DNA of 64,000 bases from Terramyces sp. JEL0728 (lineage: Eukaryota > Chytridiomycota > Chytridiomycetes > Rhizophydiales > Terramycetaceae): the NCBI GenBank assembly GCA_027603945.1, contig JADIIU010000071.1, positions 1-64,000 on the forward strand, read 5' to 3'. Below are positions 2,648 through 63,946 of this stretch, piece by piece. The translations under genes and the position numbers were made by a program. Every line of letters starts with the position of its first letter. Position 1 is the first letter of the stretch. The notes beneath the pieces are model-generated. The model searched no databases. It was not told the DNA's origin and saw only the letters and a list, made by a program, of their open reading frames with translations.

Positions 2648-3904
2648 TCAAGAACAAGATTTATCTGATTGTGGTTTCTTGCCGTAGTTGCAGCAACAAT
2701 TGGTACCTAGTTTAGCAGTTCAGCTACCTGGAACAAGTGGTTGGTTCGTTGTGTCTGGAGAAACTCCTTCGCAATTAAAAGAGTTACTGGCGCAAGGTGC
2801 AGTAGGCCCACTAGTACCAGGAGGCGGCCATTTAGCGTTTAATTGGCACGGTATTGGCTTTGCAGCACTCAATTGGCAACTGCCACTGCTTGTATGTCCG
2901 GAGCAGAGACTGTTCCAAGCATTTATATCAAGATCAAAATGAGCTTGCGTTAATTTAAATCTTACGATGGTTATTGGAAGCGCACCAATCGCACTGAGCA
3001 ACTACTGGAACACCACAGTTGTTTCCGCAACAGCCGTTGTATAAGCTGCCTGCTGAGCCAACACAAGGACAATTTGGAGTTAAATTAGGATTGAGACCAT
3101 TCAAAGTCGGTAAATTGATTGCATTCACGCATGGGCTTATTAGTAATATAGTACCCACATTCTTGGAATCCAGATCCATTGCATTTACAGTATCCACCGC
3201 ATCTTTATAAACTTGTGTTTACCTATCAGTAAGGGCTACTACGACTTGCGATCCGCTTGGGCCGGTTAATTCGTAACACAAGTTTGATGCTTCAGTCATG
3301 CCGAGACCCCAAGCACCGCCAATACCAGTTCTATTCGTAAACTTTGCCTGCTGGCTATTACCTACGATCATGGCAGAGGATGCAGCAATCCCAACGCACT
3401 TTGTTGAAGGGTTAGGATTATCTGGACAAACTTGAAGCCCCAGCAAGTTTGCTACCTTGTTAGCCGTAACTAATGGCTGCTCGGTTTGAGAAACTCCATT
3501 ACAGCCTACGTCAGTGTCAACATACCGCCGTTAGCTAGCGTACAGTAGTAAGTGGACCACGGATTGGGGTCAGATTGAATACCTTGATACCCACCAGTAA
3601 ATACGCAAACGCCATTCACACAGTTGCCTAGACCTAGTGGACAAGTTTCTGCAGTACAAGCAGTTGGAGGCATACAAATCGTTACATCATCTTTGACCCG
3701 CAGCAGTCTTCCTTGATTTTGATACCCGCATCCCTCAGATCCATCGTGATTTAGGAAAAGTGGTAAGGTAGGGGGCTGCGAACTGTTTGTCACTGCGATA
3801 GCACTTGCACTGCCATGGTAAAGTAAGAGCAGGAAATGGACCAACTGTCTCCTGGTCAGTGCGCCAAATCCAAGATTTACTAAGGAATACAAGTTGGACG
3901 GCAT
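2648..3904 (-). CDS. Secreted double-psi beta-barrel (expansin/barwin-like) protein with Cys-rich tail
   Basis: Six exons give about 384 residues. Introns are 3506-3525 (20 nt), 3203-3222 (20), 3136-3154 (19), 2944-2965 (22) and 2707-2727 (21). The N-terminus has a hydrophobic stretch (HFLLLLYHGSASA) consistent with a signal peptide; the exact ATG is uncertain. The core contains GGAWGLGMTEASNLCYE, VVVALTDRCGGYC, ECGPCVNA, the QCDWCASNNHPHFDLDI segment and GSCQL, a pattern I associate with barwin/expansin/GH45-type double-psi barrels acting on cell-wall polysaccharide. The last 40 residues (FNCEGVSPDTTNQPLVPGT, then CCC and YGKKP) closely match the tail of the chitinase transcribed divergently next door, implying a shared wall-binding module. 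The enzymatic or loosening activity is inferred, not shown. Confidence 0.75.
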
Positions 3905-4335
3905 CTATCTAGCAAGCTTGACTCTATACTGGTCAGAAAGGACTTACTGGAAATTATTGGCTCGGTTTTAGCATGTGTTCCATTTATAAAAATCTCTGTG
4001 GTCTTTGTCCCGCCTCCTTGAGTAAGCTTTTAAGGGAAAAGGAAAATGCAACAATCAGATTAACTCACGGAGCCTAGCATCTGATAAAGTAAATACGATC
4101 TGTTTGAAATAAGGGATGCAGTATTGCCTGCGGAAGATTTACACCTCACCCGAATACCAAAAAATCTTTCCGCTCAAACAACTCCTCGGCGTTTTCGAGG
4201 TTTTTGGAAATAAAACATGAAATATCCTATCGCATCAGGTGATATTTGATAAATGCACGCACAACCAGGAACGAATGACTTATAAACAGCAGCCAATCTC
4301 AACGATCTTCTCTCCCTTTCGTCAACTTAAAAGAA
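3905..4335. promoter_or_regulatory. Divergent promoter region between barrel protein and chitinase
   Basis: This 431-base gap separates the start codons of two divergently transcribed secreted genes whose proteins share a tail module. Shared regulation is plausible. I see no motif I can name. Confidence 0.4.
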
Positions 4336-5952
4336 ATGTTTACCGGGGCTTCAACCAATCTCCAACTGCTAGGGCTTGTAGCTGTGTATCTGTTATCTGG
4401 GATCAATGCTGCGACTATTAGCCAGCCAATCAACGCCAAAAGGAATTTTAATCACGGAACCATTCGGTCGACCATCAAAGTAACTGCGCCAGCCAACTGC
4501 CCAGCTTTGGGAGCACTTCCTCCAACACCAAACGCTCGGCCAAATGGCAACATGTACGTAGGATACTATGAATCTTGGGCTGATCCAACTGCTTCAAACC
4601 TGTGTCTCGTTCCTACTTATTACAATGTGGTAATTCTCTCCTTTGTCAATCCAACGTTCAAGTACACCAAAGGCTCGTTTGACATCTCTCAAACTGGTTT
4701 GGACTTTTTGCCGTCGGCAGCAGCCAACTTGAAAAATGGTATTGCTATTCTCAGATCACGAGGAAATCGTGTGTTGGTATCAGCTGGTGGGTGGTGCTAC
4801 TCAGGTAACTTCAATTAAACAATAGTCGATGGTGATTCAACATGCATTGCAGGAGGTGTTACTCCTTCTAAAACCAGCTGGGCAATGTTTGATCCAAAAG
4901 ACTCGAGATACAATCCAACACTCTATACCCAAAGTCTCAATGCTCTCCGAGACTTTGTAGACGATTTCGGTATAGACGGCGTTGATGTTGATTTCGAAAC
5001 TAACGGCTATCCATCGTCCATGTCTTCTCAGGCCAATTGCCAGCCAAGTAATGGTGGAGGCCCGTGGGTTCCACCAGGCACAAATCTAACTCAAACTTGT
5101 GCTGCCGATCCGCAGTACATTAATATAGTAAACCAATTTCGTTCTGCATTTCCACGACCATACCTTTTGAGCAGTGCTGTCCATGGGTATGGTGCGTATG
5201 GCGAAGGCAAGTACGATAACGCTCACATGGTAATCACTTGTTAATAATAGGCTCCTGGCTGGGGTGGATTATGGTGGAATGGTGGTATGTCCATTGGAAT
5301 GTTGAAAGCATCAGGAAGCAGTCTGGATTGGCTGAATGTAATGTCCTACGATGCCAACACGTACTGGGATCCAGCGTCGAGGACCTACATCGTCAATCCA
5401 AACAATAACAATGTCAACTTTGGATACTATGACCCAACAACGGCACTCTCGGCATACAAACAATACTTTTCTGGACCAATCTTGTTGGGGGTTGAAACTC
5501 CAATGGAAGGATATCCCGCTGACCAAGCATCTACACCGTGCCATTTAGGACATTGTTTGACGGTTGGCGAACTGGGGTTCTTGCTTGATGTTATTGCATC
5601 TCAAAAAGCAGGTGGAATCATGATCTGGGCAATTCAAAAGCAACCACAGCCGCAATACGCTGCATACCCTGATCCTAATACCGTCTCCTCTCAAGTTTGT
5701 AATTATTTCAAGTGGTCAAATTGTCATGACGCTTTTCCACTTGGCTCTGCTGCTCCAACTGCTGCTCCAACTGCTGCTCCAACTGCTGCTCCAACTGCTG
5801 CTCCAACCACCGGTCCAGTAACAACGACTTGCGGGGAAAACTCTTTTAACTGCAGTGGTGTATCTCCAGATCCAAAAAACCAACCGCTTATTCCAGGAAC
5901 TATTTGCTGCTGCTACTACGGGAAGACTCCAAAGTCTGCAAATTCTTGTTAA
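4336..5952 (+). CDS. Secreted GH18 chitinase
   Basis: Three exons give about 524 residues. Introns are 4805-4825 and 5230-5250, both 21 nt, each introducing stops if retained. The protein starts with a signal peptide ending near LLSGINA. The GH18 barrel includes YVGYYESW, VLVSAGGWCYSG (SxGG motif) and the catalytic DGVDVDFE, so the acid Glu and the preceding Asp residues are all present. MSYDANTYWDP and GGIMIWAI match later barrel strands. After the barrel comes a linker of five AAPT repeats, then a Cys-rich tail (FNCSGVSPDPKNQPLIPGT, CCCYYGKTPKS) almost identical to that of the divergent neighbour. The enzyme would hydrolyse chitin in the wall or environment. Confidence 0.95.
5749..5808 (+). 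repeat. 12-bp coding minisatellite in chitinase linker
   Basis: Five tandem copies of GCTGCTCCAACT (the last ends ACC) encode Ala-Ala-Pro-Thr repeats joining the catalytic barrel to the C-terminal module. Copy number is likely to vary between strains. Confidence 0.95.
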
Positions 5953-7151: not shown

Positions 7152-7802
7152 TTATTGAGTAAAGAACCAATACTCTGCAGTATATGCCACACGTATACTC
7201 TGTCCGCTTTGGCATGCAGAAGTAGGAGCATTTCCGCCTCTAGTATGCACTCGCAGGACAGAATTAACTTTGGAGAACACACCTGCACTCGATCCAGAAG
7301 TGCGGGTCAATACGACCCAAGTAATAGAATTAGAGTCAACTGTACTTTTCGCTGCTGCTTTCCCAGTAAAAGTGCTATAATCATTCAAGTACATCCACGT
7401 TGGCTGACCACCACTGCTATCCGCAGCAGGTAAAAAGAAGTGCGATACTTCAGGATGCTCCAGTCTATGGCGGTTCTTTGCTAGTTCGGCATTAGCAGAT
7501 TCAAGTTGCCAGCTACCACTAGAGCATTGGTAGTTTTGAGTTCCAACGCCGGATGTTTTTGCTAGTAATTTACTTCCGGAAGGTGGTCTGATTTCTTGTG
7601 GGATTCCGTTAAATAAATCGTCGTCAGAGTGGTATTTGCTGTAGTGCAAGTCTCCGTTATAGTATTGTGCAGGGTATTGGCGATCGGAGTGAGATTTGTG
7701 AAGGTTAGGCGTGCGGTTGTTGTGACGCTTTGAAAGGTTATCTGCTGAAATGGATGGCAGGAGAAGGGATGCGACAAACATTGTATTCCAATGTATTTTC
7801 AA
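7152..7802 (-). CDS. Secreted DUF3455 protein, short-linker paralogue
   Basis: This single-exon protein of up to 216 residues is paralogous to the gene at 362-1183. The start is 7802, or the internal ATG at 7781 which gives a cleaner signal peptide (MFVASLLLPSISA). A KRH dibasic site follows, as in the paralogue. Shared features are GSKLLAKTSGVGTQNYQC, GGQPTWMYL, ITWVVLTRTSG, LRVHTRGGNAP and YTAEYWFF at the end. The Gly/Ser/Gln-rich linker is largely missing. It is probably an extracellular protein of unknown function. Confidence 0.85.
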   Translation of the reverse strand: MKIHWNTMFVASLLLPSISADNLSKRHNNRTPNLHKSHSDRQYPAQYYNGDLHYSKYHSDDDLFNGIPQEIRPPSGSKLLAKTSGVGTQNYQCSSGSWQLESANAELAKNRHRLEHPEVSHFFLPAADSSGGQPTWMYLNDYSTFTGKAAAKSTVDSNSITWVVLTRTSGSSAGVFSKVNSVLRVHTRGGNAPTSACQSGQSIRVAYTAEYWFFTQ

Positions 7803-7935: not shown

Positions 7936-9805
7936 TTAAACAAAGGCAAAGTTTTGTTGAGCAGAACCCGCTCTCATAAGTAAGCAAGCAACTATTTCCT
8001 TGATAAATTCTTCAAAACATATAATGTTTCTAATTACTTCTCTTTCTTGATCAAAATCGGACATGAGATCATCATTTAAGCTTTGTTTAATCAGCGGCAA
8101 TCTGATTTCATAGTTTGGAATGCTTGCCTTGTACTGATCTACTTCGGCTATTAGTTTTGTGAAAATAGTAAGGATCGAGGGACAGGCTGGGCTGTCTGAT
8201 TCTTCAAATAGACACGAGAACAGCACTTGGTTTGGCTGAGTGGATAGAATAGTAATAATTCCCGTTAGCGCAAGATTGATTTTCATGGAATGTTGGAAGA
8301 AGCCACTGAACTTTTGTAGTATTTTGTTGAGTGTTGGGTCAGTCTTTAATAGAGCAACTTTTTCCTGTAATCTTCCCTCAGCCAATTCAACATCAACTTG
8401 TGTTTCAGAACCATCTTTTTGTAACGGTTTGTTCACTAGAATTGCCGAAATCGCGTCTGCTAAATACGTATCAAGGTTAGAATGCTGAGGTCCTGTCCCT
8501 TTTGGTAATAGCGGAATGTACTTGTTGAGCAACTCCATATGTTCGGAAATTTTCACTGGAATCTTTACATCCAAGTCGTCACATTTTTCAAACAATAACG
8601 ACACAGCTAACCTAGATTGGTGGGTCAAGATGAAAGTCAAGATTTGAATTACCAAAGTAACAACATCTTCTGACAATGAATTTAATTTTGAAAGTAAAAT
8701 ATCCCTTGCTTTCAAACTGTCCAAATCATCAACACTGCTACTTTCCAATAAGAATCTAGTAAGCGCTTCAAACATTTTTTGGTCAACAGTAAGTTCAATC
8801 ATGTTTTGAATATAAAATAGTGAAGTGACAGTCGACCCATCAAAATCTGAGCAGGAATTTAAAGTTGAAAACACAACTTGAGACAAGAACAAATCTGTGA
8901 ACTGTTTAATGATTGCATCTCCAATCTTTCCACTTGGACACTTTGTCAGACACATATGGACAAATTTGTAAAATGAGAGAAATGCTTTCATATCTGCTTC
9001 AAAAATTTCCTTGTTGTGTCTGCTCCTGTTGGAAATATTTGGCAATATAACTGGTAGCTGAGCATGTAATCCTGCCAAAGAAGCTACAATAATCGAAGAA
9101 AATTCAGTTTGTAATATGTATCCTTCCAAATCGCTGTTTACAGCACATTGACACAAGAGCATCTCAAACGCTGCTCTAGCAAAATCGCCGTTCTCAGTGT
9201 CCAAATGAACTAGATTAAAATCAAGTACTGAACTGAATCAAGTGGTCAAAGATTGAAAATTGAGGCTTTCCATCTTGTGGTTTTAAAAAGAATAAATGGA
9301 GCAATTCCGGAGATTCCAATATTTTCAATGATAAATGGTATTCCTGAATTAATTACAGTTACCAATTCAATCAATTTTTCTCCCAAAGCTTGGTCTTTGA
9401 GTAGTTTCGTAATTGGCCCGTGAATAGCTGCGTTGTAGATGAAATGAGAATCCATCATGTTGACTAATTGTGAAGCGAAATTGATTATTCGCTTGTTGCT
9501 TCCCGCCAAAATCATTTGTCCCAGAATTTCATTCTTCAAAAAGAATTCGGTGCAGCTGCCAGTTTCCTACATTAAAGTCATTGTACATTAGTCTTGAGGT
9601 TTTTGGCCTGTTCCATCAACAAGAGATCAAGCATTTCATCCAAAGAATTTCTTAATTGCTGTTCGGAATACGGAGACTTTAGCTCTTCCAAGGCATATTT
9701 CCATGCGCTCTTGAATTGGTCGATCGGAGTTTGTTCTTCGAATACTTTTGCCGCTTCCCGGCTAATTGAAAGTAGTTTCGATTTGAAATCTCCAAACAAA
9801 TCCAT
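7936..9805 (-). CDS. FHIP-like (RAI16/FAM160 family) protein
   Basis: Four exons give about 603 residues. Introns are 9567-9586 (20 nt), 9344-9362 (19) and 9210-9228 (19). Splicing restores family landmarks: an N-terminal FKSAWKYAL segment, SPELLHLFFLKPQ, then PQFSIFDHLIQFIHLD followed by NGDFARAAFEMLL, the signature of FHIP proteins (FTS- and Hook-interacting). In fungi such as Aspergillus this family links early endosomes to dynein through Hook, so a cytosolic trafficking adaptor is the likely role. I chose the start at 9805 (MDLFGDFKSK) because upstream in-frame residues do not resemble the family. The C-terminal part is helical repeat-like and less conserved. Confidence 0.8.
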
Positions 9806-10182: not shown

Positions 10183-11298
10183 ATGACGCAGGTTCAACCA
10201 CGAATTATGGAAAAGCTACAAGAAATCTTGGAGGAGTTTCAGCAAACTGCTTCTTTGGATCTCGCCAACAGTCTTGTAGATAATCTCTACACATTGCTGG
10301 CTGCCAACGAAAAGTACTTAAAGGTGTCTGACGCTTCCCAGGTTCAAAAAGCTGTAATCCAGATACTCGATTGCAGCAGGGCTATTCGAATACAGCATGT
10401 GAATTACATCCCAATGATTCATACTCAAAGCAGAACCTCGTCTACCGGTCTATCCGAACCTTTTCCACTGGGTTCGCCAGACCTAAGCCAGCAGTGTCAA
10501 TATGAACCTCTTCAGCAAACTCTATTCACACTCCATGACCCAATCAAAGTCAATCTCTTTGCACCAGATACTCAAGGTAAATGATGTTGACATAAAGACC
10601 CAGCAGTCTCTCTTGAACTGGTTGAAGATTACAAGACCGACTTGGGGCCGGTTGGCAAATACAGTCCTTCTCATAGCACTTTAGAAGAGAGCAAAGAGTC
10701 TTCATCTTCAGAAAACTCTGACGATGAGGAGTACAATCCAGATAACGAGCTCAAGGGTGCAGAGCAGTCGAAACCAACTTCTAATACATTGCCAGTGGTT
10801 AAGCCAGCAAAGAAAAGAATTGCCAGAGCAAAACAATTGAACCTAGTTGAAGCGACCGGAGGTACATTCAGATATCCGTGCAATGCAATCCAAGATTTAC
10901 CATTTGAACTCACTCCTCAAAAGAAATTGCTCATGTACGAGTGGGTCCAAAAGAATTATGACGATCCGTACCTCACTCAGAGCAAAAAGGTCCAGTTCAG
11001 CTACTTGCTCCAGTTATCAATCACTCAAGTTGAAGATTTCTTTTCCAATAGTAATTTACACTAAATTAGCTCGAAGACGAATCGTATTCAACAAGAAAAA
11101 AGCTCCTAATGCACGCATGAAATCACTGATGACCAAAATGAAAAAAATTCAAGTTTGTTTGAATAGCAACCAGATTCAAATCGATCCTACGCTCATGCAG
11201 GTGCTGATGGATGGTGGTGCGAAATCAAAAGGTAGTTAAATATTCACATAGCTACAGGCAAGAAGGGTGAAGCTGATCAAAATATCCAAGATGAATAA
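10183..11298 (+). CDS. TALE-like (homeobox KN) homeodomain transcription factor
   Basis: Four exons give about 351 residues. Introns are 10577-10597 (21 nt), 11051-11069 (19) and 11232-11251 (20). An acidic Ser/Glu stretch (ESSSSENSDDEEY) precedes a basic segment and then the homeodomain: LTPQKKLLMYEWVQKNY, DDPYLTQSKKVQFSYLLQLS, and helix 3 VEDFFSNTRRRI created by joining exons 2 and 3. Helix 3 keeps the invariant Asn51 and Arg53 but has Phe instead of Trp48. The spacing between helices 1 and 2 (NYDDPYLT) is the extended loop of the TALE class. It should be a nuclear DNA-binding regulator. Translation may also start at the ATG at 10207. Confidence 0.8.
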
Positions 11299-11348: not shown

Positions 11349-12833
11349 ATGAATAATCTGCTTTTGAACCCGTGGGATAACGAAGCTGCAACAGAAGGTA
11401 AACTTTCTTAATGTCAGAACAACCTTCAATGTCTTCTTCTTCACTAAACGAGCGGGGAATGATATTTTCACGATCCTATTCTGATGATTTACCAAGCAGG
11501 GGTTCAGTAACATTGACAACTGATCTCACTCAAGACCCTTGGAAATCAAATGAAAACCTAGTTGGAGGTGATGAAATATTTTCGAATTCAGCAACATTAC
11601 CTCCGTTTCCACCACAGAAAGAACCCAAGAAACTGCCGCAACCACAAAAAGACTCTAGTTATGAAATTGAACTCAAAAAGCTGGATCAAATTACTGTGGA
11701 ATTGGAAGAGAAGCAAGTTCCATTATTTGGCCACTTGAATTACACTATTATATCAAAAGTACTGCCGTATTAATTCAGTATCACGGCTCTACTGTGTCCA
11801 GAAGGTATTCGGATGTATTATGGCTCCAAAATCATCTGTTGAAAAAATATCCGTTCAGGATTATCACTTCTATTCCTCCAAAGAAAGCCGTTGGAGGTAA
11901 TTCCATTCTGATCAAGTTGATGCGGCTTTTATAGAACAGCGCAGGAAAGGGTTATCCAGATTCATGAATCTCATTGCAAATCATCCTGTAATCAGCAAAG
12001 ATCCTCAAATCCATGCATTTTTCACATGCGAAGCGGTACCTGAAATTAAGACTAGACTTTTCAAAGTTATAGACATTCTAATGCTGTGGAAAATGAAGAG
12101 GAATTCAGTGTAAATCAAGTACAGGAAGATGAATTATCCTCAGTACCCGAAGGATTTGAATCTCAGCTGTTGGATTTGAAAACAACACTAAAACCTCAGA
12201 TTGATTACATATGCGATTTGGTTGGAATAATGGAGAGATACGTGCAGAGATCAATCGGTATTTGCAATTAACATAGCGTCTGCCGCTGACATTCGCAAAC
12301 TTGCCATGCTGTTAAGTACCACCAAGAATGGAAACAAGTGCATCGTAAATGGATGCACAACCTGCCAAACCATTAACGAACAATGTGATGCGTATGCCGA
12401 GGGTTTAGAAGGAGTCTGTAATGCCCACACAGATCAAGCGTATACCACTTCAATGGAGATTGTTGAAAATTTGAAATCATACAGGGATTTGCTTACTGGA
12501 TTCCAAATATTATTGACGAGAAGGGAGATGGCAATGACTTCAATGACTTCACAGAACATTGGCAGAAGAATAGCGGGCAATAAGAATAGATTGGTGGAAA
12601 TCACTGCAAAAGGGGCTGGTCAAAAAGAAATTGATAGAATTACAAATCTCATAAATCAAGACGAGAGGGAACAAGAATATCAAATCGCACGGACAAAATT
12701 CATCCAGTGGTGTGTATATAATGAATACAGGTTCCTACACAGTCAAAAATCCTCATTAGTAATTCTGTTAACGTTATTCTTGGAAACACAAATAGAATTT
12801 TCCAGCCAATCCCTTTCCGTACTTTCTTTTTAA
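11349..12833 (+). CDS. MVP1: Sorting nexin Mvp1/SNX8-like
   Basis: Six exons give about 461 residues. Introns are 11398-11417, 11759-11778, 11897-11916 and 12036-12055 (all 20 nt) and 12258-12276 (19). After an unstructured N-terminus, the PX domain reads FGHLNYTIISK, then VSRRYSDVLWLQNHLLKKYP, FRIITSIPPKK and EQRRKGLSRFMNLIANHPVI, the classical phosphoinositide-binding PX elements. The C-terminal half is a BAR-like helical region (INQDEREQEYQIARTKFIQW). The order and sequence match Mvp1/SNX8, which promotes endosome-to-Golgi and endosomal recycling traffic. The extreme C-terminus is less certain. Confidence 0.9.
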
Positions 12834-12958
12834 CCTAGACATGGAGTATCATATCCGGCACATTATCTGAAATAACCAATCTCTAGTTTATTCTACTATT
12901 TTATCCAGACCAAACATGGACGATACTAATGCTTCCAACTGTTCCATCCCTAGCAATT

Positions 12959-20136: not shown

Positions 20137-20146
20137 TCCTTTATTT

Positions 20147-50682: not shown

Positions 50683-51064
50683 TCAACGATTACCCGGAGC
50701 TGGAGCAGATCCTTCGTTCTTTACCAGAATATGAACGACGGTTGTAGTGCCTTGTGTGAGTTTGTTTGCTAAATTACGTTTTATTTACATTCCAAAGTGC
50801 TGGTTTTCTCCAAAAACTTGCCGCTATGTAAAACTTTGATTTTGTCTACAGATATTGGGCTGACGATTGATGTGTCGTTTTTCCATTCTCTTTAATCTGA
50901 TGGTTACCTGTTGGCCACTGGTTATAAACTGTGTTGCATAGTGTTTCCACGGTATCTGATGGTGATAATTGATAATCAGTTTTCTGTCCTGATACGAGCA
51001 GTATTCTCACTATTGCTTTGTCTGCGGGACATGTCTCGTAAATATTGACTTTGTTTTCAGCCAT
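50683..51064 (-). CDS. UBL3/MUB-like ubiquitin-fold protein
   Basis: Three exons give about 113 residues. Introns are 50888-50907 (20 nt; an AG at 18 nt is skipped) and 50769-50788 (20). Splicing yields ADKAIVRILLVSGQKTDYQL, VYNQWPTEWKND, KIKVLHSGKFLEKTSTLE and TTTVVHILVKNEG, matching UBL3/MUB proteins. Those normally end in a prenylated Cys (CaaX) that anchors them to membranes; this one ends SAPAPGNR with no cysteine. Function in ubiquitin-enzyme recruitment or vesicle sorting is inferred from the family. Confidence 0.8.
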
Positions 51065-51329
51065 AATTTTGCAAGGGGAGATTTTCGAGTGGTGTTTTTG
51101 GCCAATCAAAAAGTAGAAACAATGCCTCCTGGATCTAATCAACATTGTCCTGAAATAATTGGATCGGCAGCGTTTAATCGCATAACTAGGCTATTAGCAA
51201 TCGGCATGGTTGTTTAAATATGGATCGAATTTAGTCTTTGTGGCATGAATAAAAGGCGCCTTGATTAACTGCTGACCAGTTGGGTTAAACAGGATCGCAA
51301 TATAAAGCGATTCAAAAACAAAAACATTT

Positions 51330-54300
51330 TTATTTTACTTTGGAAAAGTACACATTCATGAATTCAAAGAATGCGAATTGGCTTGGTTCAGTGCCATACT
51401 TGTAAACAAATCTAGAAGCCAAGTAACTTCCAAAGATAGCTTTGACATAGTTTTCAGGAACACGTTTCAAAAGGGTGTCTAAACCAACCTTTTCTAATAA
51501 ACATGGCGGGAACGCTTCCATTAATACAACGCGACGAAGCGGTACGTTATCCCACAAATTAGTTGTACGTAATTCTTCGTTAAGTTTAACAATCGCATAG
51601 GACAAGTCATCGGACAAGATGCTCTTTGCTTTTGTTGAACGAAGAGATTCCCTCCACAATGCTTCAAATTCTAATTCTGCATTCTTTTCAATAATTTTTT
51701 GCACCTGTTTTACATATTCTGCATAGAATGGTGGCACAACTCCGTTTCTTACCTGCATGTGTTCAAAGAATTCTTCATCAGAGAGCGAAAGAGCAGCCAA
51801 TACTTCAAGCGAGGACGAAGTGACACCGCCCTTGTTTGCTGAAGCATCCTTGAACAAAACTACACCAGCCTTTTCAAGTCTAAGACGCGCTTCTTGCGTG
51901 ATAAACAAGTTGGCACCTTCGACAATGTACTTGAACCTTGGAGTTCCGTCAGCATTGAGCAATTCTTTCCAGTTGTTGAGATCTACTGCTTCTGGTCTGC
52001 CACCACATGGAACAAACATATCTGCAGATGAAAGTGGGTGAAGGTGGAATTCGTTTCTGAATTTCAATCCATTTTCAACAATAGTCCCATCTAGTGTTAA
52101 TAACAAGTACCTGGGAGTTTAACATTGTTTTGATCAACCAACACTCTGAAGCCTTTTGGACTTAGCTTAGAAACGTCGAATTCACTAATCATTTGACGTT
52201 TGTTTGCTAATCGGAGCAGTTCTTCGCGGTTAATGCCTTGAGCGTCATACAATACCCCAGATCCGTCGAGGATAGCAGTACATCTGTCTTTGGAAATTTT
52301 GATTTCATTAGAACCCAAGTCGCCATCTGGTCCGCCAGTCTGGAATTTGGTAATGTTGCTTTCTTGCAAGTGCAATTTTCTGTAAATGCCAAGCTTGTAT
52401 TGGTGAACTGAGCGAGTAGTCATGCCATAAGTGTCGTGTGGAATACCACCAATCGACTGACTCTTTCCAGTGGTGAACGCCTTCCAGAAATACGCACCTC
52501 TTTCTCTAGCATGCTGACTGGCCCAATCCATCATGTCTGCAGTGCCTTCATCAGGACCAAAGAAGAGGATTTCTGGTTTGTTGTTTAAATCAACAATCTT
52601 TTCCTTGATACCTGGAGTTTCACCAATGATCAAAAGATCGAGGATAGAATCAACGTACTTTTCAAACGCTACTCTGGCCTTGTCTTGCGCTTGGAAATCC
52701 AAGAGGATTGTTCCTTTAGATCCACCTTCAGGAATATCCTTATTCTTTCTTTGTTGAGTATTTGCAAGACCATAGTTCTCATCCAATAAACTACGCAAGT
52801 TGATACTGTATGCTTCCTTGTTTCTTGAACGGACAATACGGATACCACCACGCGCGATATCTCTGAATCTCAGGTGGAATCCTCTGAATTCACTGCCAAC
52901 AACCAAGAATAGTCCAAACGGAGTTGATGGGTATTCAACAGTTGGCATAAATGCAGGGTCAAGTCTGAACGAAAGGGCGACCTTGGTTGGTTGGTAAAAG
53001 TTGGTTTTGAGAACATGGTTGTTGAACGTAAGGTATGATTCCCAAATCTATCATTATCATCCAATTACCAATAGCTCTTGGCTGTTTTGAACAGTCTTCT
53101 TCATTGTAGCACGGATCTCATCTTCAGTCAAGATTGGAGTAGTTTGCAAACGTTGAACTGAAAGAGAAGGAGCCAAGTTTTGATCATTCACTGTAATGTG
53201 ATGAGTTAATGCAAAGTGGTTGTAGCATAAGGAAAGCAATTCTGGATAGAGCTTGATGACATCGAGGATATATTCACGAGTAAATGTATCAGTTCTAAGA
53301 CGCTTCTTGATTTTGGATAACACATCAACATGAGCATTGTTTTGGAAATCAATGATTGATGTCAATGATGTGTACTCACTGCCAAGACGGTTCAAGAAAT
53401 GCTGAGAAAAGATCCATCCAACATACCCATAAACTACTTCCTGGACTAAAGATTAACGTTTACTTACCACTCAATTTTCCAGTTTGGAAAAAGATTTGCA
53501 TCGGGGTAGTTGGCAAGCAATAGATTAAACTGGCTTCCTTGATAATTTGGTAAATTGAATTTTCAATTGGAGCCGCTTTGCTTCCAGGTACCTGATTCAA
53601 GTAAAAACTGCAAATAGTAACCCCATTGGAGAATTGCTCAACATATTTACGGGTAGTGTACAGATCGTAAAAGTGGTACAAGTCAGACATGGCAGAGAAG
53701 AATGAGGAGGTAGTTCCTTGCCTACAATTAGAGATACTTACTTGAAACCAACAACCAAGCGCTTTTCTCTGGATCCATGAACATCGTACATTTCAATAAC
53801 CGGGCCAGAACGTACCAGCACTTGCTTCATAACGTTTTGGTAGATTTCCAGAGTGTTTTCAGCAGCCTTTTCCAAAAAGTTTTTATCGGAAACCGCTTTA
53901 ATATCAGTGGATTGCTCGTCAGTGGGGGCTGGGTTGGCGAATTCACACTTGCGAATGAAATAGCATCTTAGAGTGGTTGAGTGGACGGAAGAAACCGTTC
54001 CAAATGAGCGGTAACTTTCTATACGGAAACTAGTGGTTTTGGAAGAAGAAACATCCAAGTAATTGGCGTCGATCCTAGAGTTAACGAGTATTACTTGTCT
54101 TCGTACTTTGGACCTTTTGGATTAGATACGCCAGGGCGTGAAGTGTGGATGTAAACAGCGCCATCAGTAGTTTCTCTTTCGAGATTGATTTCAAGAGACT
54201 TTTCGTTACGAATGTATGCGTTAATCTTTGCGCCGTACAATGCCATGATATGCTGCCCAATAGTTTCAACAGATTCCTGTTGGAAATACATGTCATCGAT

Positions 54301-54477
54301 GCCCAAGTTTCTAATCGTTAATATCAATTACCCGTAGAACCAGGTGACTTCGTTATCTACGAGTTCCTTTGGGATGAAACCCTTTTCAGCAACATAAGTA
54401 GATACTTGGCCCATTTGATCTTTCTTTGCAGCAAATACATTGCGAGTATATCCTACAGATTCTGATGTCAACTTCAT
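51330..54477 (-). CDS. GDH2: NAD-specific glutamate dehydrogenase (Gdh2)
   Basis: Seven exons give about 1007 residues. Introns are 54311-54331 (21 nt), 54075-54094 (20), 53722-53741 (20), 53446-53467 (22), 53048-53068 (21) and 52091-52110 (20). Family motifs include FRFRDIARGGIRIV-type (HLRFRDIARGGIRIV), EGGSKGTILLDFQ, FFGPDEGTADMMDW, CGGRPEAVDLNNW, YIVEGANLFITQEARLRLE and ASANKGGVTSSSLEV. This is the large fungal enzyme that oxidises glutamate to 2-oxoglutarate and ammonium with NAD. The start at 54477 (MKLTSESVGYTR) is the first convincing ATG; a short further 5' exon is possible. Confidence 0.93.
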
Positions 54478-55118
54478 CCTGAGAGAATTAGTGATTGAAG
54501 AAAGATTTTGAAATTGTTTGGAAAGTGGCGAGATATGCACCAACGAACAAGAGCCAATTTGAGACGAGCAGTAATGATATACTTACATATTTGAAATTGA
54601 CTAAGGCTCTTTTTTTCTCATTAAATATACTGGTCAAAATCACGGGATGATCAGCTGGAGGACACTAAATTACATGAAATCCCGATCGGGAAGAAACGAG
54701 GGCGAAAATCCTGTTATTCAATTGGTTTGCGAATGCGCATTGCAACCCACTACCTATCAATGTACTCTTATTGGCAGGTATTTGCAATACTGTTGTTTAA
54801 TTTCGTCAAGCCCCAAAAACAGGTTGGCCGTTTCCACTAGGTTTTGGCATACCTTTTGTGTGCCACAACAAGGAAAGACAAATCAATTTCTTTAGGCTTG
54901 AATCACTTGGTATTTTGAGACAAGCATCATTTGAATCACTTGGTATTTTGAGACAAGCATCATTTGAATCACTTGGTATTTTGAGACAAGCATCATTAAA
55001 GCACTAGTCTAGAATACCAGCCCTTTGATATTTCAACTACTTATAGGTATAATTCAACAGCATATTTCTTTATAGTGCAACTATACACAATATAAGCAAT
55101 AGAGAATAAAGAATCTAT
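54478..55118. other. Intergenic region with tandem repeat
   Basis: About 640 bases between GDH2 and the first ceramidase hold no clear gene. They contain the GDH2 5' flank and a 3 x 33-bp repeat, listed separately. Confidence 0.5.
54898..54996. repeat. Three perfect tandem copies of a 33-bp unit
   Basis: The unit begins TTGAATCACTTGGTATTTTG and ends GACAAGCATCAT; copies lie at 54898-54930, 54931-54963 and 54964-54996 with no mismatch, implying recent expansion. It lies in the GDH2 upstream region, about 420 bp from its start. Confidence 0.97.
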
Positions 55119-56058
55119 TTATTGTTCAAAGGTATTGTAGCTGACTTTCTTTTCGACCTTGATATCTTGTAAAACGATATACGGAACAAAGTTCAAAAAG
55201 TGTTTGATTCTTGGTTCCTTACCAGACAATCTTTGGCTCATTCTGTCATAGAGTCCAAACAATCCCATATTATACAACCTATGATTAATAATAGTTACCC
55301 TATGGAAATAAATACGTGCCACCAAGCATGGAATTGCGGGTTGAATGGCAGGACAGCTTTAGAATAAAATGGATTGACATAGTCGCAAGCAGTAAAGTCT
55401 ACGATCCACCAGACGAAAGCGAAACCGTAGAACTTGAACCCATTTTCAAAGATCCTTGTACACTCGGCATCGCGGAAAGCAATCTTGTGAGTTCTATAAA
55501 TAGTAAACATCTGGTAGACTGCAAAGACTTGAGCGGTACCAAATGAAATGTGGAACAGGATGAATTGCCATTTGCCCTCGAAAGCAGTCACCAAATAAGT
55601 GGTCAACGCTGCATGGGAAACGAGAGCTACCGCCAGAATGGTTCTAGTCGAATGCTTGAAATTGTATTTTTGGCACAAGGTAATATATGCAAAAGCTAGA
55701 GCGCTGTATAACATTGGCACTTCATCAGCAGCCTGAGTAAAATTGGATAGAGTCCCCTACAATTAAATTGGTCTTACATGAAAGGCAACTGACCCTAAAC
55801 CGACGGCGATTGTCGCACCGAAAGCTGTTTTGAATCTGGTTTCTGCCCAGGGATGAAGCAAGATCCCAAAGACACCAGCTAGTGCCAACGCCAATGACGA
55901 CATGGAGTTGAAGAATTCTGCCAAATACGGAGTATATTCATAGTTGACTGCGTTAATTAATGCAAACCTTCACACCAGTCCACAGATGCCGTTGGGGGAT
56001 AGTCCCAATATGGTGTATGTACAGTAGTTAAATTTCTTACAAGGTTGTGGAATACCAT
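55119..56058 (-). CDS. Alkaline ceramidase (copy 1)
   Basis: Four exons give about 292 residues. Introns are 55948-55967 (20 nt, donor GTTTGC), 55757-55777 (21) and 55279-55298 (20). The opening PYWDYPPTASVDWCEVNYEY and the FHGTLSNFTQAADEVPMLY segment, with DFTACDYVNPF and FHAWWHVFI, carry the Asp, Ser and three His zinc-site residues of alkaline ceramidases (Ypc1/Ydc1/ACER). Seven membrane helices are expected in the ER or Golgi. It hydrolyses ceramide to sphingoid base plus fatty acid. A tandem paralogue lies upstream. Confidence 0.93.
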
Positions 56059-56176
56059 ATATATAAACAGCAGATTATTCTCTTGGTGTGTGATTTTATA
56101 CGTGCAAGGCTTTCGGTTTCAGTGTGACTATCAGAATACGTCGTTTCATAGATAATGCAGTTTCAGATAGAGACGT

Positions 56177-57027
56177 TTATTTCTTTTCAAATGTGACGGG
56201 TACTAGTACAATATAAGGGAAAATATTCACCAAGTATTTGACTGAAGGGTAGTATCCAGATGACAGCTTTGACTGCATCCGATCATACAGTCCAAATATC
56301 GCCATGTAGTACAATGAAAGTGAAACAAGCAGGTGCCAGAAACTATGCAGCTGTGGGTTGAATGGCAGCAGCGATGTGGAGTAGGATGGATTGAGATACC
56401 GACAAGCAGTAAAATCTAGTACCCAGCATAGTATAGCCAACCCCAAATATATACACCCTCGTTCAAAGATTCTAGTGAATTCATTATCATTGCTGGCTAT
56501 TTTGTGTTTTCTATATAACCAAGCTAATTGATACACGACAAAGACAATGGTTGATTCAAAGGAAAGATGAAAGAGTCTAAATTGCCATTCACCTTCATAA
56601 GCAGTGACCAAATAAGTGGTAATCGCGGCATGTCCGAAAAGCACACTTACCAGTATCTGTTTCTTTGACGAGTTTAAATTATATTTTTGGCAGATCAAGA
56701 TATACGCAAACGTTAATGCTGACCAGAGCATAGGCACTTCATCAAATGCTTGAGTGACTTTGGATAATGTACCATGGAATGCTACTGACCCCAACCCAAC
56801 TGCAACAACGTTCCAAAATGCAACTTTAAACCTAGACTCTACCCACGGATGTAAATAGATACCAAGGAAGCCGACAATAGCCATTGCGAATGACGACAGA
56901 GAGTTGAAATATTCAGCTAAATATGAAGAGTGCTCATAGTCATTTTCACACCAATTTACACTTGCCTGATATTAAGTAAAATTACCGTTGGAGGAGACCA
57001 ATATGGGCTATAATTCGTTAGAGACAT
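56177..57027 (-). CDS. Alkaline ceramidase (copy 2)
   Basis: Two exons give about 276 residues with one 20-nt intron (56966-56985). It parallels copy 1: YSPYWSPPTASVNWCENDYE, AFHGTLSKVTQAFDEVPMLW, LDFTACRYLNPSYS and LHSFWHLLVSLSLYYM. Catalytic residues are retained. Its only intron sits between the Thr and Ala codons of PPTASV, whereas copy 1 has its first intron further on within WCEV, and copy 1's other two introns are missing here. The tandem copies therefore differ completely in intron positions. Confidence 0.93.
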
Positions 57028-58731: not shown

Positions 58732-61102
58732 ATGGACATTCAACAGGTATGCACTGCTAATGTTAGTTGGAAATCCCCCACCTAGTTGCGGATAGAATTC
58801 TAAGAAATTTAACTTTGCAAAATGATCGAATGAAGCTTTTGCTAGTGTGCAAGGAATGGTCGAGGGCTTTCGCAACTGCAATTTACCAAAACCCGGATTT
58901 AACACCGACCGATGCATTCGAACGATTGCTAGGTCTATTAAATACTCCTCTCCCAACCCACCCATATTCATTCATGATTCAAAAACTGGACATTTCAGGA
59001 ATTGCTGCAGATAATTTGTACATGGGTGATTTGGATGCATGCTTGAAGCAATGCGCAAATATAAAAATATTGCGGTTGGAAAGATGCTTCCATATCTCCA
59101 ACATCCTGCTGCAATCGATTTCAAATTATTGTTTTAAAATTGAACAGGTAAGCGATCTGGGCTCATTTTTAGCTTGATTTACCTGGATGTCCAATCTCAG
59201 ATAGGTTTGTCCCTTTGCTTGCAAAGAACTGCCAAATGTTGAAAAAGATTGATTTCTCATTTACTAATATGACCATCACTGCACTTTATCACCTTATAGC
59301 CAACTGTCCTTCAATTCTTGAAATCGATTTATCCGAATGTAAGCAATCCGAAGGGCTGCCAGAACCTCTTGTTAAAAACTTTCACTCCTCTTTGAATTAT
59401 CTCAATTTGCGTAACAGTCCTGTAACTGATACCATAATGAGATATGTCGCTAGCCAATGTCCGAAATTAAAAACGTTAATTTTGGAATCTTGTGGAGATT
59501 TAACCGATGCTAGTTTAATGAAAGTTGCGAATTCTTGTCCAGAACTAGTTACATTGGACTTGTCTTTTTGCGATATGATGACTGATTTGTCTCTTCAAGT
59601 GTTTTCAATCCGTGCTTCCAGCGATAAAGGAGGGAAGTTGCAGGTACTCGATTCTTAATTTCAGGAATTACATTTGGCCGCTTGTGATCAAATTACACCT
59701 TCTGCTGTACACCAACTTGTAAAGAAATGTGCCAATTTGGAATTGCTAGTTTTGGATGGATGTGACAAAATTACAAACTCATATATTAAACCTCATGCAA
59801 CATTCAAAGAAGATGACATTACTTGCACCTTTGAATTACCAGAAATCAAAAAACTGGCAGAACTTTCAATCGAAGAAGCCAAAGTCACTCCAGCCGACTC
59901 TTACACCACTCCTCCAGCTACTCCCCCAAGAGTCAATGTTTCATTTGATCCCTATGAAATTTCAAAGTTGGAAGACGAAAATTACAAACGCCTCTCGTTA
60001 AGCATTGCTAAAAACCCTGCCGGATTATCAAGAAAAAAGTCCAGGTCCCTGTTGTCCCGCAGATCAATGATCAATATGGTCACACCACTAGAAGCTGAAA
60101 ACTTTGTCGAGGCTGCCTTTGAAGATAGAGCCCAAAGAATTAGACATAAAAGACTCTCCAAAGTATCCAGCCCAGTCGCTGAAGTGCCATCCATTGAAAA
60201 TTCAATCGAAAAAGCGAGAAGAATATCTGTTCGTAGATCAATGAATGATTTATCCATTAAATCCACTAAATATGTACCTACAAACACGCCTGTTCAAGAA
60301 AACATTAACACCAATACTTCTTGGATCTCTAATTCCACATACTATGACAGTAAATCCAACAGCCCTGCTGCTGTAGAATCGAAATTAGACTGGAACAAAC
60401 CGGCCAACCCAACTCCAAGACCAATGTCAGTAACTGCTGCTGCATTTACTCCTGCAAATGCTCAGCCTGCCCAAACTTTGCTCGCATCTGGAAGAAGATT
60501 GAGACACCAAAGCATGACTAATTCTATTCCAAAGTCAGTCGAGCCATTTGCTCCAGCGCACGTCAACCCCGCTCCTAATCCGCCTCCAGTCTCTAATGGC
60601 TGGGGTGCTGACCCGCAAGTGTGGAATAATCCAACTCAATTGACTGCCAACAGTTCAACCTGGTCCACTAGAAACTCTGTTCAGCTCCCTCCATCAAACT
60701 TTGTCGATCCTTGGTCTGCGAATAATCCAGAAGTGAACAAGCGATCTTCCCTGTCATGGCAAAAACCTGTTCATACAACCACCACAAACCAAGACTCTTT
60801 GACATCAGTTTACGGATGGAAGCAATCCGCCCAAGACCCAGCTCCAATCGAAGGGTTCCAATATTCTGGTACTAATCGTGGTAGAATGCTGATCAAACTC
60901 AAGATTGAAACTAGGACTGGCGGACATCAAACCCTTGTAATCCACGAGGTAAATAATTATTTAACCATAGTATGACGATCCTACTAAACTTGCTGCTGAA
61001 TTTTGTACTTATTGGAACATGACTGACTTCAAGGCACCGCTAGTTCGTTTAATTACCATTCGCAAGAACAACGCTTTGAGATCCAAGCAATCTTTCAAAT
61101 AG
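58732..61102 (+). CDS. F-box/leucine-rich repeat protein
   Basis: Five exons give about 760 residues. Introns are 58747-58766 (20 nt), 59148-59172 (25, the longest firm intron), 59644-59664 (21) and 60949-60970 (22). The F-box begins in exon 2 (IPHLVADRILRNLTLQNDRM then LLLVCKEWSRAF). Splicing across the 25-nt intron yields the LRR IEQLDLPGCPISDRFVPLLA; further LRRs read LILESCGDLTDASLMKVANS and LVTLDLSFCDMMTDLSLQVF. The C-terminal 400 residues are Ser/Pro/Asn-rich and end in a conserved-looking block DDPTKLAAEFCTYWNM. It is probably an SCF ubiquitin-ligase receptor like Grr1/Pof2. Confidence 0.85.
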
Positions 61103-61413: not shown

Positions 61414-62760
61414 ATGGATAACCAACAAACAGAAACGTATATATTGAAAAGAAAATCCGGTGATTCCAAAGACACTCTGCCAGACACGTCAAAATCTTTT
61501 ATAGAAATGCTCAAACCCAAAGTATATGAAGATGGACAAGTAGATCAGGGGTACGCATGGGTAACTGTCCTCGCCAGTTTTGTCGTCCACTTTTTTGCAA
61601 TTGGAGTTACGTATGTGTTTGGTATTTACCAAGAAGCGTACAAACAAGATCCACTACTCAAAGATATACCTAATTTCGGGATCTCTTTTATCGGTAGTTT
61701 AACGTCTGCTGGACTACCGATTTTCTCGATCATCTCTGGCAACTTGACTGAGATATACGGACACAGACTGATTGGCGTCATTGGTGGGGTGCTATATTTT
61801 TTGGCATTTACTCTCGCTTCATTTGCTACTCAATATTGGCAACTGTTGCTTACTCAAGGGTTCATGTTGGGTATGGGTATCTGCTTTTCCTACTTTCCTG
61901 CCATTACCATCTTGTCACAATGGTTTGACAAAAAGAAGGGCATCGCTACAGGTGTCGCAGTTGCAGGGTCAGGACTGGGCGGGCTTGTTTTGGGGCCGAT
62001 GACTACCACTCTTATTTCGTCTTTGGGTAGAAGCAAGAGTTTGCTTATCTCTGGTGTACTGGGTGGAACCATGATCATTCTCTCTGCGCTCACTTTCCGT
62101 CCGCGACTACCAATCAGTTACGCACAAAAGGAATACTTTTCAATCTTCAAGAACAAGCATTTTAGAACGCTCTACGTTTTGTCATTCATCACTACTTTTG
62201 GATACTTGATTCCGTTCTTTTACCTGCCAGTTTATGGCGTTGCCAAGGGGTTGACAGCTAATCAAGGCGCCTTGGTGATTGGTCTCTTGAACGGTGCTTC
62301 TGGTATAGGCAGAATCATCCTGGGCCATTCAGCAGATAGGATGGGACATTTGAATACCTTTACCGCGTGTCTAGGTCTTTCATCGCTGTCAATTATGCTA
62401 ATCTGGCCATTCGCAGTGAATTTCACTTCGATCCTTGCTTTTGGTATTGTGTTTGGACTGTTTGTTGGTGGTTATATCTCAATCTTACCAACAGTCATCG
62501 TTCAGCTATTTGGACTAGAGAATATCGGCGGTATTTTTGGTATGCTTTACAGCTCTCCATTGATTGGTACTGTGTTTGGCCCTAGTATCGCAGGCGCGAT
62601 GATTGACTCTTTGACAACAGTAAATGATGGCCAGGAAAGCACCAACTTTGTGCCTGTTATTTACTACTCTGGCATATGTATGTTCATTGGCTTTACTCTT
62701 CTGGTTAAAATCATATTTGACCTGCGTAAAGAAAAAAGCGCGGAAAGAGCAGTCGTTTAA
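61414..62760 (+). CDS. MFS monocarboxylate transporter-like (Mch family)
   Basis: This is a 448-residue, single-exon, 12-helix transporter. The diagnostic start of helix 1, VDQGYAWVTVLASFVVHF, and FPAITILSQWFDKKKGIATG with GSGLGGLVLGP in helix 5 mark the monocarboxylate porter family. Fungal members (Mch1-5) mostly do not transport lactate and include a riboflavin carrier, so the substrate is open. The start at 61414 gives a 45-residue hydrophilic N-terminus. Its 3' end lies 27 bp from the convergent RanGAP stop. Confidence 0.92.
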   Translation: MDNQQTETYILKRKSGDSKDTLPDTSKSFIEMLKPKVYEDGQVDQGYAWVTVLASFVVHFFAIGVTYVFGIYQEAYKQDPLLKDIPNFGISFIGSLTSAGLPIFSIISGNLTEIYGHRLIGVIGGVLYFLAFTLASFATQYWQLLLTQGFMLGMGICFSYFPAITILSQWFDKKKGIATGVAVAGSGLGGLVLGPMTTTLISSLGRSKSLLISGVLGGTMIILSALTFRPRLPISYAQKEYFSIFKNKHFRTLYVLSFITTFGYLIPFFYLPVYGVAKGLTANQGALVIGLLNGASGIGRIILGHSADRMGHLNTFTACLGLSSLSIMLIWPFAVNFTSILAFGIVFGLFVGGYISILPTVIVQLFGLENIGGIFGMLYSSPLIGTVFGPSIAGAMIDSLTTVNDGQESTNFVPVIYYSGICMFIGFTLLVKIIFDLRKEKSAERAVV

Positions 62761-62787
62761 TTTATAAAGAAATAAAATCAAACTTTA

Positions 62788-63946
62788 TTATAATGTACCT
62801 TCAAGTTTCTTTGCCAAGTCATCCACTTCTTGAGATTCTTCTTCTTCTGGTTCTTCTTCATCTTCATCTTCCTCTTCATCTTCCATTTCATCTAGTTCAT
62901 CCAAGCAGTCTTCTTTGCCCAATCTTTCCAATTGCTTTTTAATTGCTTCCACTTCAGACCCTTCTCCATCAAAGGTATTTCCATTCAATTCAATGCTCTT
63001 CAAATCTTCTTTTCCCACCAACATTTCAGGAACTAGTTTCGCACCAGCAGCATTGATTTCATTAAAGAATAAAGCTACACGCTCCAATTTGTGATTGGAG
63101 CTTGCAAGTCCTCTGATAACTGCTTGTCCACCTTTTGCTCCTAACAAACAGTCGCCAATGTTAAGGTGTTTCAAATTAGGCCATTTAGGGAATGCCTTAG
63201 CAATTGCTTGGGATCCTGGAAGAGTGAAGGTATTGTCTTGTAAATCCAAAAATTCCAATTTTCCACACTTTGAAATTCGTTCAACTAGTTCGGCGATACC
63301 TTTGATTAATACCCATTACCTTCTGGTCTAATAGAGTTTTGTGGCATTTGGATATGTTTTAAGGAAGCAGAGAATGCTTCCAACGCCTTGGAAAGATGAC
63401 CAACACCTGGCGATTCCATACGGTTTCTTCCAGCGACAATAACTTGCAATTTATCTGGAATTCCTTCCCTTACATTTTTTTCATGCGCTTCAACCAAAGC
63501 TTCAGAGATTAATCTTGCTCCTTCAATGCCCAATCCATTGTTGTTTAATCGCAAAATTTCAATATTTCTGTTGTTGATTAGCAATCGCATCAAAGGCTTG
63601 GCTCCAGCTGGCCCAAATGCGTTATCTGATAAATCTATTTCCACCAATTTCTTTTTGTTTTCGAATGCAAGAACAAAGGCATCCAAGCAAAGCGGGATTT
63701 CATCTTTCAGTCTTCCGGTGAACATGTCGCTGAATTTGACAATCGGGGTTAGCAAGAACTTACTGAAAGGTCTTCTTGATCTTTTAATGCGTCCGCAATT
63801 GCTTTACAAGCTTCAACCCCATATGTATTACCACCCAAACTGATTTCAGTGAGCTTTAGTTGTTTAATTGCATCGCAATATCCTTTGACATCTTCAGCCG
63901 TGTTCAATTTTAAACCTTTTCCTTTAATTTCTTCATAAACAACCAT
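62788..63946 (-). CDS. RNA1: Ran GTPase-activating protein (Rna1/RanGAP)
   Basis: Three exons give about 372 residues. Introns are 63744-63763 (20 nt, GT...CG) and 63300-63319 (20). LRR protein with [40 protein letters not shown] (RanGAP signature with the arginine loop), [40 protein letters not shown] and a strongly acidic Glu/Asp tail. It activates GTP hydrolysis by Ran in the cytoplasm. The first intron must end at CG to keep frame; the nearest downstream AG gives a 34-nt intron and a frameshift to an early stop. Confidence 0.93.

Follow-up and report, generated by a model that had tools for sequence, protein, structure and literature searches.

The window analysed here comprises the first 64,000 nucleotides of contig JADIIU010000071.1 (assembly GCA_027603945.1) of Terramyces sp. 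JEL0728 (Chytridiomycota, Rhizophydiales, Terramycetaceae). Terramyces is a free-living soil saprotroph. The window carries, among others, genes for an NAD-glutamate dehydrogenase (GDH), COX15, the sorting nexin Mvp1, a TauD protein and a KN-homeobox protein, and these genes are interrupted by introns of about 20 nt (Table 1). With a trained gene model that includes a branch-site term (see below) we obtained 101 introns in 43 genes scoring at least 15; 95 of the 101 measured 18–23 nt. The individual lengths were 16 (1), 18 (1), 19 (26), 20 (35), 21 (21), 22 (11) and 23 nt (1); a further five measured 93, 145, 163, 183 and 210 nt.

A preliminary description of the window had arrived, by hand count, at about 87 introns distributed over 31 genes, with lengths of 18 (2), 19 (24), 20 (33), 21 (17), 22 (10) and 25 nt (1). 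Of these classes, that of 18 nt is doubtful (see below). For the first gene, given there as 2648–3904 with five introns, short introns were indeed found, but the gene is modelled as 2648–3673 with six. That all spliced lengths were divisible by three had been taken as support; this property is automatic for a joined reading frame and provides no evidence. The claim that splicing restores family motifs holds in part: the spliced models pass the Pfam cut-off for TauD (PF02668, 4.1e-22), Homeobox_KN (4.7e-06) and leucine-rich repeats, while in the SLC45-like model the motif QFTWTVEF is rejoined, though a 64-aa piece gave no Pfam match.

The intron class was detected with a plain reading-frame model composed of codon log-odds, start and stop terms and free jumps between two given dinucleotides. 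Jumps could be 10 to 120 nt long at equal cost, and no splice-site information entered. This motif-free run covered 264 kb, made up of the window and another 20 stretches of 10 kb from the same genome. For GT..AG we found 153 jumps, 92 of which were 18–22 nt long. Six control pairs (TG..GA, CT..AC, GA..AT, CA..AG, GT..CA and AC..CT) provided 120–145 jumps in total each, with only 8, 12, 11, 10, 9 and 12 jumps of 18–22 nt. About 10 of the 92 GT..AG calls could thus be due to chance, the remainder not. Among the 92 segments, 82 started with GTA and 65 contained YTRAY at −12 to −4, a motif that was unused in the search. In the GT..AG segments of 23–120 nt the motif was present in 13 of 49, and in the 18–22 nt bin of the four control pairs inspected in 1/8, 0/11, 4/10 and 3/9. 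One control bin was high, with the branch motif in 46 of 112 CA..AG segments of 23–120 nt, probably because false donors reach real acceptors together with their branch sites.

A flat length model (10–400) with a cheap intron bridged neighbouring genes by false long introns, such that lengths were learned thereafter. A trained model without a branch term, in which donor, acceptor and length were learned, was applied to the window and 24 other stretches (304 kb). Here 504 of 568 introns were 18–23 nt long and all three intron phases occurred (209/178/117 among the 504). For the model with a branch term ten more short loci were added, while overlapping and near-duplicate loci were excluded, resulting in 336,343 bases in 35 records. 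In this sample 563 of 599 introns fell into the range of 18–23 nt: 10 of 18, 151 of 19, 211 of 20, 133 of 21, 51 of 22 and 7 of 23 nt; four measured 16–17 nt, six 24 nt and 26 were longer. The genome-wide histogram proposed in the preliminary description, as far as a sample of 336 kb provides it, accordingly peaks at 20 nt. Introns of 18–23 nt were present in 172 of 206 modelled genes at a density of 2.06 per kb of coding sequence, and the median gap between modelled genes was 142 bases, with overlaps counted as negative. Each of the 24 other 10-kb stretches contained 9 to 33 such introns, in combination 422 of 448; extrapolation to 15.0 Mb gives a rough figure of 26,400.

The introns had a lower GC content (31.8%) than the sequence that was sampled first (39.6%). 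An in-frame stop upon retention was found in 98 of the 133 21-nt introns and was absent from 35, a ratio that is affected by the bias of the gene finder against stopless introns. In the 18-nt class T[AG]A[CT] was seen in only 7 of 24 calls of the model without a branch term, and the class shrank to 10 of 599 once the branch site was scored. Most 18-nt introns are thus doubtful and the real floor is probably 19 nt. At the other end of the distribution, the branch motif occurred in 4 of 44 calls over 60 nt without the branch term, and in 9 of 26 introns over 24 nt in the model that rewards it. Most of the introns over 24 nt that remained with learned lengths look like bridging artefacts.

The anatomy of the short introns is highly regular. 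With the branch-term model the donor reads GT followed by A (88%), A (57%), T (45%) and T (58%), i.e. GTA(A)TT, in which GTA alone is strong; G at position +5 is found in 18%. In introns of 19–21 nt +5G is rarer (82/495) than in those of 22–24 nt (22/64, p = 0.0017; the test was chosen after looking at the data), which may reflect that U1 and U2 would hardly fit together on one such intron (see below). Calls of 32–56 nt were obtained at four loci (L007, L019, L020 and L028); four of the six modelled introns of 32–60 nt have GTAAG donors, unlike most short introns. The branch site reads C/T, T (97%), A (76%), A (98%), C/T, figures that are biased since this model scores the branch. Less biased is the model without a branch term, in which 386 of 504 introns contained T[AG]A[CT]; in 311 of these the adenosine was the 14th or 15th base, and in 306 it was followed by 5 or 6 nt. 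The distance to both ends is thus fixed, so that the lariat ring would be nearly constant. For the strict YTRAY set (341 introns) rings of 14, 15 and 16 nt numbered 162, 128 and 33, and tails of 5 and 6 nt dominated. Combining rings of 14 and 15 nt with tails of 5 and 6 nt gave 86, 69, 54 and 47 introns without any dependence (p = 0.85), and the motif-free set provided the same pattern (12, 16, 8 and 11). A 19-nt intron is thus 14 + 5, a 20-nt intron 14 + 6 or 15 + 5 and a 21-nt intron 15 + 6, while 18 nt fits no sum. In 384 of 399 introns with the motif no other AG intervened between the branch site and the acceptor YAG. Upstream of the branch site the intron interior is T-rich.

For 15 introns in three genes we compared six residues on each side of the junction with homologues, using 31 of 120 listed rows for GDH, 30 of 120 for COX15 and 3 of 36 for the sorting nexin, besides the deposited Terramyces proteins (Table 1). 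Apart from the latter, the next matches included Boothiomyces, Globomyces, Kappamyces, Entophlyctis and Batrachochytrium. Eleven of the 15 junctions were gapless in at least 30 of 30–31 rows or in 2–3 of 3. GDH intron 2, COX15 intron 3 and sorting nexin intron 2 scored zero because some other row opens a column, yet are gapless to the nearest relative. Overall 14 of 15 junctions were gapless to the nearest other species. Only sorting nexin intron 6 lacked support; the Boothiomyces protein ends there.

The deposited Terramyces models agreed with ours at 12 of the 15 junctions. The spliced GDH is 99% identical to the deposited protein P0001 of the same strain, and the sorting nexin model equals the deposited P0241 over 472 aa, including six introns of 19–20 nt. 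In two of the three genes, however, the deposited models drop or truncate conserved protein near introns of 20–22 nt. Deposited GDH lacks the ten residues VTICSFYLNQ, at a site where each of the seven other species in the alignment has residues. Deposited COX15 ends at the junction of intron 3 because the unspliced reading is TGG TAG.

Table 1. Introns of the window. Positions refer to the 64,000-nt window; lengths in nt are given where reported; fractions are homologue rows with a gapless junction.
Gene or feature	Position	Strand	Introns	Remarks
GDH (gene 51330-54477), intron 1	54311-54331	-	21	As in P0001; 30/31
GDH, intron 2	54075-54094	-	20	As deposited; 0/31; gapless to Globomyces P0002
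GDH, intron 3	53722-53741	-	20	31/31
GDH, intron 4	53446-53467	-	22	22-nt version 31/31; deposited model breaks conserved GKLSVQE and fits a donor 3 nt upstream
GDH, intron 5	53048-53068	-	21	31/31
GDH, intron 6	52091-52110	-	20	30/31
Sorting nexin Mvp1 (gene 11349-12886), intron 1	11398-11417	+	20	As P0241; 3/3
Sorting nexin Mvp1, intron 2	11759-11778	+	20	As P0241; 0/3; gapless to Boothiomyces P0242
Sorting nexin Mvp1, intron 3	11897-11916	+	20	As P0241; 2/3
Sorting nexin Mvp1, intron 4	12036-12055	+	20	As P0241; 2/3
Sorting nexin Mvp1, intron 5	12258-12276	+	19	As P0241; 3/3
Sorting nexin Mvp1, intron 6	12819-12838	+	20	In P0241; relatives 0/3
COX15 (gene 25073-26486), intron 1	25621-25640	+	20	30/30
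COX15, intron 2	25771-25791	+	21	30/30; deposited protein lacks 13 conserved residues VKSGLGDDIIENK after it
COX15, intron 3	26169-26188	+	20	0/30; gapless to Boothiomyces P0121; deposited protein stops here
Secreted-protein-like gene	2648-3673	-	3506-3525, 3203-3222, 3136-3154, 2944-2965, 2767-2787, 2707-2727	Six introns
Chitinase-like gene	4336-5952	+	4805-4825 (21), 5230-5250 (21)	Function assigned by eye
Gene	7936-9805	-	9567-9586 (20), 9344-9362 (19), 9210-9228 (19)	
KN-homeobox gene	10207-11298	+	10577-10597 (21), 11051-11069 (19), 11232-11251 (20)	Second intron at end of homeobox match
Gene	13621-14822	+	14103-14121 (19), 14475-14493 (19)	
SLC45-like gene	14837-16152	-	16085-16103 (19), 15904-15921 (18), 15560-15578 (19)	Label from preliminary description; 18-nt intron doubtful
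Three genes	16269-21012	.	16944-16964, 19016-19034; 19865-19883, 19951-19969, 20034-20053; 20751-20772, 20405-20423	Seven introns
Two genes	22084-24925	+	22261-22281, 23072-23093, 23359-23377, 23405-23424, 23553-23572; 24535-24554, 24771-24791	Seven introns
Five genes	28562-35386	.	29580-29600, 28778-28799, 28634-28655; 30234-30253; 32875-32894; 33375-33394; 34248-34266, 34376-34395, 34503-34522	Nine introns
Two genes	35164-38412	.	37058-37079, 37027-37045, 36679-36697, 36296-36315, 36116-36135, 35869-35887; 38021-38041, 38274-38294	Eight introns of 19-22 nt; 163-nt segment 35389-35551 probably a modelling artefact
RNA-binding-like gene	38289-38989	-	38959-38980 (22), 38802-38820 (19), 38676-38694 (19)	Suspect calls: 38598-38613 (16 nt), 38484-38505 (22 nt, within a tandem repeat of 24 nt), perhaps also 38433-38453
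Four genes	39394-47984	+	39407-39427, 39792-39810, 40218-40236, 42343-42362; 43672-43691, 44209-44229; 45132-45150; 47716-47737	Eight introns
TauD gene and following gene	48347-50374	+	48629-48649 (21); 49733-49751, 49840-49858, 50059-50079, 50154-50172	TauD intron immediately before HHDGNFW; the two genes probably wrongly joined in the model via a 183-nt segment
Gene	50627-51145	-	50888-50907, 50769-50788, 50674-50693	20 nt each
Two similar genes	55119-57027	-	55948-55967, 55757-55777, 55279-55298; 56966-56985	
Two genes	58732-61102	+	58747-58766 (20), 59026-59048 (23); 59644-59664 (21), 60949-60970 (22)	
Leucine-rich-repeat gene	62262-63725	-	63300-63319 (20)	RanGAP in preliminary description; 145- and 93-nt segments on the 3' side probably modelling artefacts

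Natural variants were found for one pair of loci. L023 and L024, located on contigs C199 and C111, are near-identical copies of one 3.1-kb stretch. Using the gene models on L023 we counted 16 substitutions and no indels in 2331 coding bases, while the introns (142 bases) had no substitutions but two single-base indels in two different introns. Intergenic DNA (633 bases) showed 4 substitutions and several indels, partly from unequal ends. Between these close copies the introns are thus free from the reading-frame constraint. The first intron differs in length between the copies (21 and 20 nt) by an additional T located between donor and branch site, such that the ring would be 15 and 14 nt, respectively. 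The 20 substitutions and few indels are as expected of haplotypes or of a recent duplication kept apart in the assembly. A paralogue of the chitinase-like gene on contig C90 (L002) has a 19-nt intron at the position and in the phase of the second intron of the window gene. The two introns differ in sequence; the other intron of the window gene and two introns of the paralogue do not coincide.

In principle the segments could be sequencing or assembly insertions that break continuous genes. Random insertions, however, would not have GT..AG ends, a length of 19–22 nt and a constantly spaced branch motif in common, nor would all 24 stretches of 10 kb contain 9 to 33 of them, which leaves this explanation with practically no weight. 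The length peak might alternatively be produced by the gene finder, if frame repair gave such a peak for any dinucleotide pair. Unconstrained models indeed join neighbouring genes through long introns that are false, and some calls in the window are probably artefacts. The six control pairs lack the peak though, and both the earlier hand count and the deposited proteins match the models. As a general explanation this is refuted, a very slim chance aside; single calls may be false, with about 10 in 92 expected from the controls for the motif-free run.

Removal by something other than the major spliceosome, such as programmed DNA elimination, ribosomal bypassing or the U12 spliceosome, would agree with the failure to detect U1, U1-70K and U6. 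We consider it highly improbable. The genome encodes a canonical U2 snRNA (140 bits), whose branch-pairing element is of the usual type, as well as the second-step factors Slu7 (139 and 104 bits) and Prp18 (109 and 56 bits). U12-type introns have the donor RTATCCTT and the branch TTCCTTAAC. The consensus found here fits U2-type sites and resembles neither of these, judged on the overall donor and branch matrices. A real minor class of 30–60 nt introns with ordinary GTAAG donors might in addition exist beside the ultrashort main class. In its favour, +5G is present in 4 of 6 introns of 32–60 nt compared to 82 of 495 of 19–21 nt (Fisher p = 0.009), and its share is also raised at 22–24 nt (22/64, see above). 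Both tests were chosen after looking at the data, and the class comprises six modelled cases, so that it is conceivable but rather doubtful.

Overall, the segments are very probably U2-type spliceosomal introns that Terramyces sp. JEL0728 would hold to about 19–22 nt throughout its genome. The claim of the preliminary description, introns of about 20 nt in an intron-rich fungal genome, is borne out by the GT..AG excess over six control pairs and the 563 of 599 introns at 18–23 nt. Several points weigh against this assignment. The evidence consists of genome and protein sequences, and T[AG]A[CT] was missing downstream of the donor in 118 of 504 introns. Of the components U2AF, SF1, U1 and U6, which had been named for inspection, SF1 (helix-hairpin domain SF1-HH, 66 and 43 bits) and U2AF35 (four pieces, 47–76% identity) were found, but there was no convincing match for U1 and U6. 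For U6 snRNA Rfam gave two weak matches only (27 bits against a cut-off of 44), located inside a protein gene on two near-identical contigs. A pattern for the ACAGAGA region matched four times; the best match, the one of the four inspected, resembles coding sequence, and the 3' half of U6 had no match at 3 mismatches. Searches for U1 snRNA gave no match and a first look for the N-terminal domain of U1-70K no candidate, results that do not show absence. Since a splicing organism needs U6, the missing U6, U1 and U1-70K look like assembly or sensitivity gaps. A loss of second-step factors, expected from the 5–6 nt between branch site and acceptor, was also considered and dropped because Slu7 and Prp18 are both present.

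How could the spliceosome handle such introns? With 5–6 bases after the branch adenosine there is no room for a polypyrimidine tract, such that U2AF35 on the AG and SF1/U2 on the branch would have to touch and may read branch and acceptor as one unit. U1, and subsequently U6, would pair with the first approximately six donor bases, leaving few bases to link to the U2-branch helix. A ring of 14–15 nt may be the size tolerated by the active site when only a few bases separate the U6-donor helix from the U2-branch helix. Given the sizes of U1 and U2, both would hardly fit side by side on 20 nt; assembly across exons or an early handover from U1 to U6 is what we infer. Variation in length would arise from adding up two distances, each tightly kept and nearly independent of the other. 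The suggestion of the preliminary description that donor, branch and acceptor are recognised almost at once is thereby quantified, with the branch adenosine at 14–15 and a tail of 5–6 nt. Since a ring of 14–15 nt exceeds the 10-nt ring proposed for Stentor (PMC9505925), the Terramyces introns would not be at the absolute limit.

Introns of this kind are known from heterotrichs, mikrocytids and nucleomorphs. The introns of heterotrich ciliates (Stentor coeruleus) are described as 15–16 nt long in intron-rich genomes, with the branch adenosine at position 10–11 and no strong branch consensus (PMC9505925). Terramyces shares with Stentor the richness in introns, the near-constant length, the fixed branch adenosine, a 5-nt tail, a strong GTA and a high AT content; it differs in length (19–22 nt), in the position of the adenosine (14–15), in having a clear YTRAY and in belonging to an unrelated lineage. 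Chlorarachniophyte nucleomorphs, i.e. relic endosymbiont nuclei, have more than 800 introns of 18–21 nt in about 300 genes (PMC10245619). Their length range is similarly narrow, whereas Terramyces has a fungal genome with about 26,000 introns by extrapolation. The parasite Mikrocytos mackini has 224 introns of 16–17 nt and a reduced spliceosome (PMC10245619). These are likewise extremely short, uniform and of conserved sequence; Terramyces has thousands of introns, and Slu7, Prp18, SF1 and U2AF35 are present. Reduction of the spliceosome was assessed on few factors: these four are present and the U1-70K search was empty. Mikrocytids (16–17 nt) and heterotrichs (15–16 nt) are closer comparisons than the microsporidia named in the preliminary description (PMC10245619).

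Ordinary fungal introns have GT-AG ends and YTRAY as well. In a study of 644 fungal genomes the mean of 63 bp in Cryptococcus is given as relatively short, compared to the mode of 20 nt in Terramyces, and an intron density of 2.53 is listed for Rozella, near the 2.06 per kb of coding sequence found here (PMC8476143). A chytrid genome paper provides, in its available part, intron numbers and not lengths (PMC5364385). Our search, judged by titles and abstract openings and with most subscription journals outside its scope, found no literature report of ultrashort introns in a chytrid or another fungus. Some of the introns have already entered the public annotation (all six for the sorting nexin). 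As far as we found, the sequence fact is thus deposited, though apparently undescribed.

Taken together, about 26,000 introns with a ring fixed at 14–15 nt and a tail of 5–6 nt, mostly lacking +5G and with no polypyrimidine tract separating branch site and acceptor, would be processed in a fungus that is otherwise ordinary and has retained SF1, U2AF35, Slu7 and Prp18. We think it likely that fungi arrived at the ultrashort state on their own, separately from ciliates, mikrocytids and nucleomorphs, and that no genome decay was involved. The gene-rich genome of Terramyces would then lie near the lower size limit of spliceosomal removal. This provides a fungus in which the minimum spliceable intron and the lariat ring can be studied at scale, and intron sizes can be compared with Boothiomyces, Globomyces and Batrachochytrium. 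From the JEL strain names, Terramyces sp. JEL0728 is apparently a culture-collection isolate (PMC7537106). Such introns go unnoticed wherever a survey sets a minimum length, an example being a survey of over 3000 eukaryote genomes that excluded introns under 30 bp (PMC10639083). The deposited Terramyces models, too, lose conserved protein near short introns.

ARAGORN found no tRNA genes, neither in the window nor in loci L003–L028 (26 loci), although tRNA genes with introns may escape, and an Rfam scan of the window gave zero matches over the cut-off. A homologue of the ribonucleotide reductase small chain (43537–44645; PF00268, 1.7e-46) reads QQNIHAE where active small subunits have E-N-I-H-S-E; from its sequence it is possibly an Rnr4-like paralogue without the full metal site. 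Upstream of the GDH gene an exact 33-base tandem repeat is present in three copies (54898–54997). A perfect 12-base repeat in five copies (5747–5807) lies in the linker between the chitinase-like part and the C-terminal Cys-rich piece of the chitinase-like gene. By eye, the proteins encoded at 362–1183 and 7152–7781, about 6 kb from each other, are related; both look secreted and they resemble each other in their C-terminal domain.

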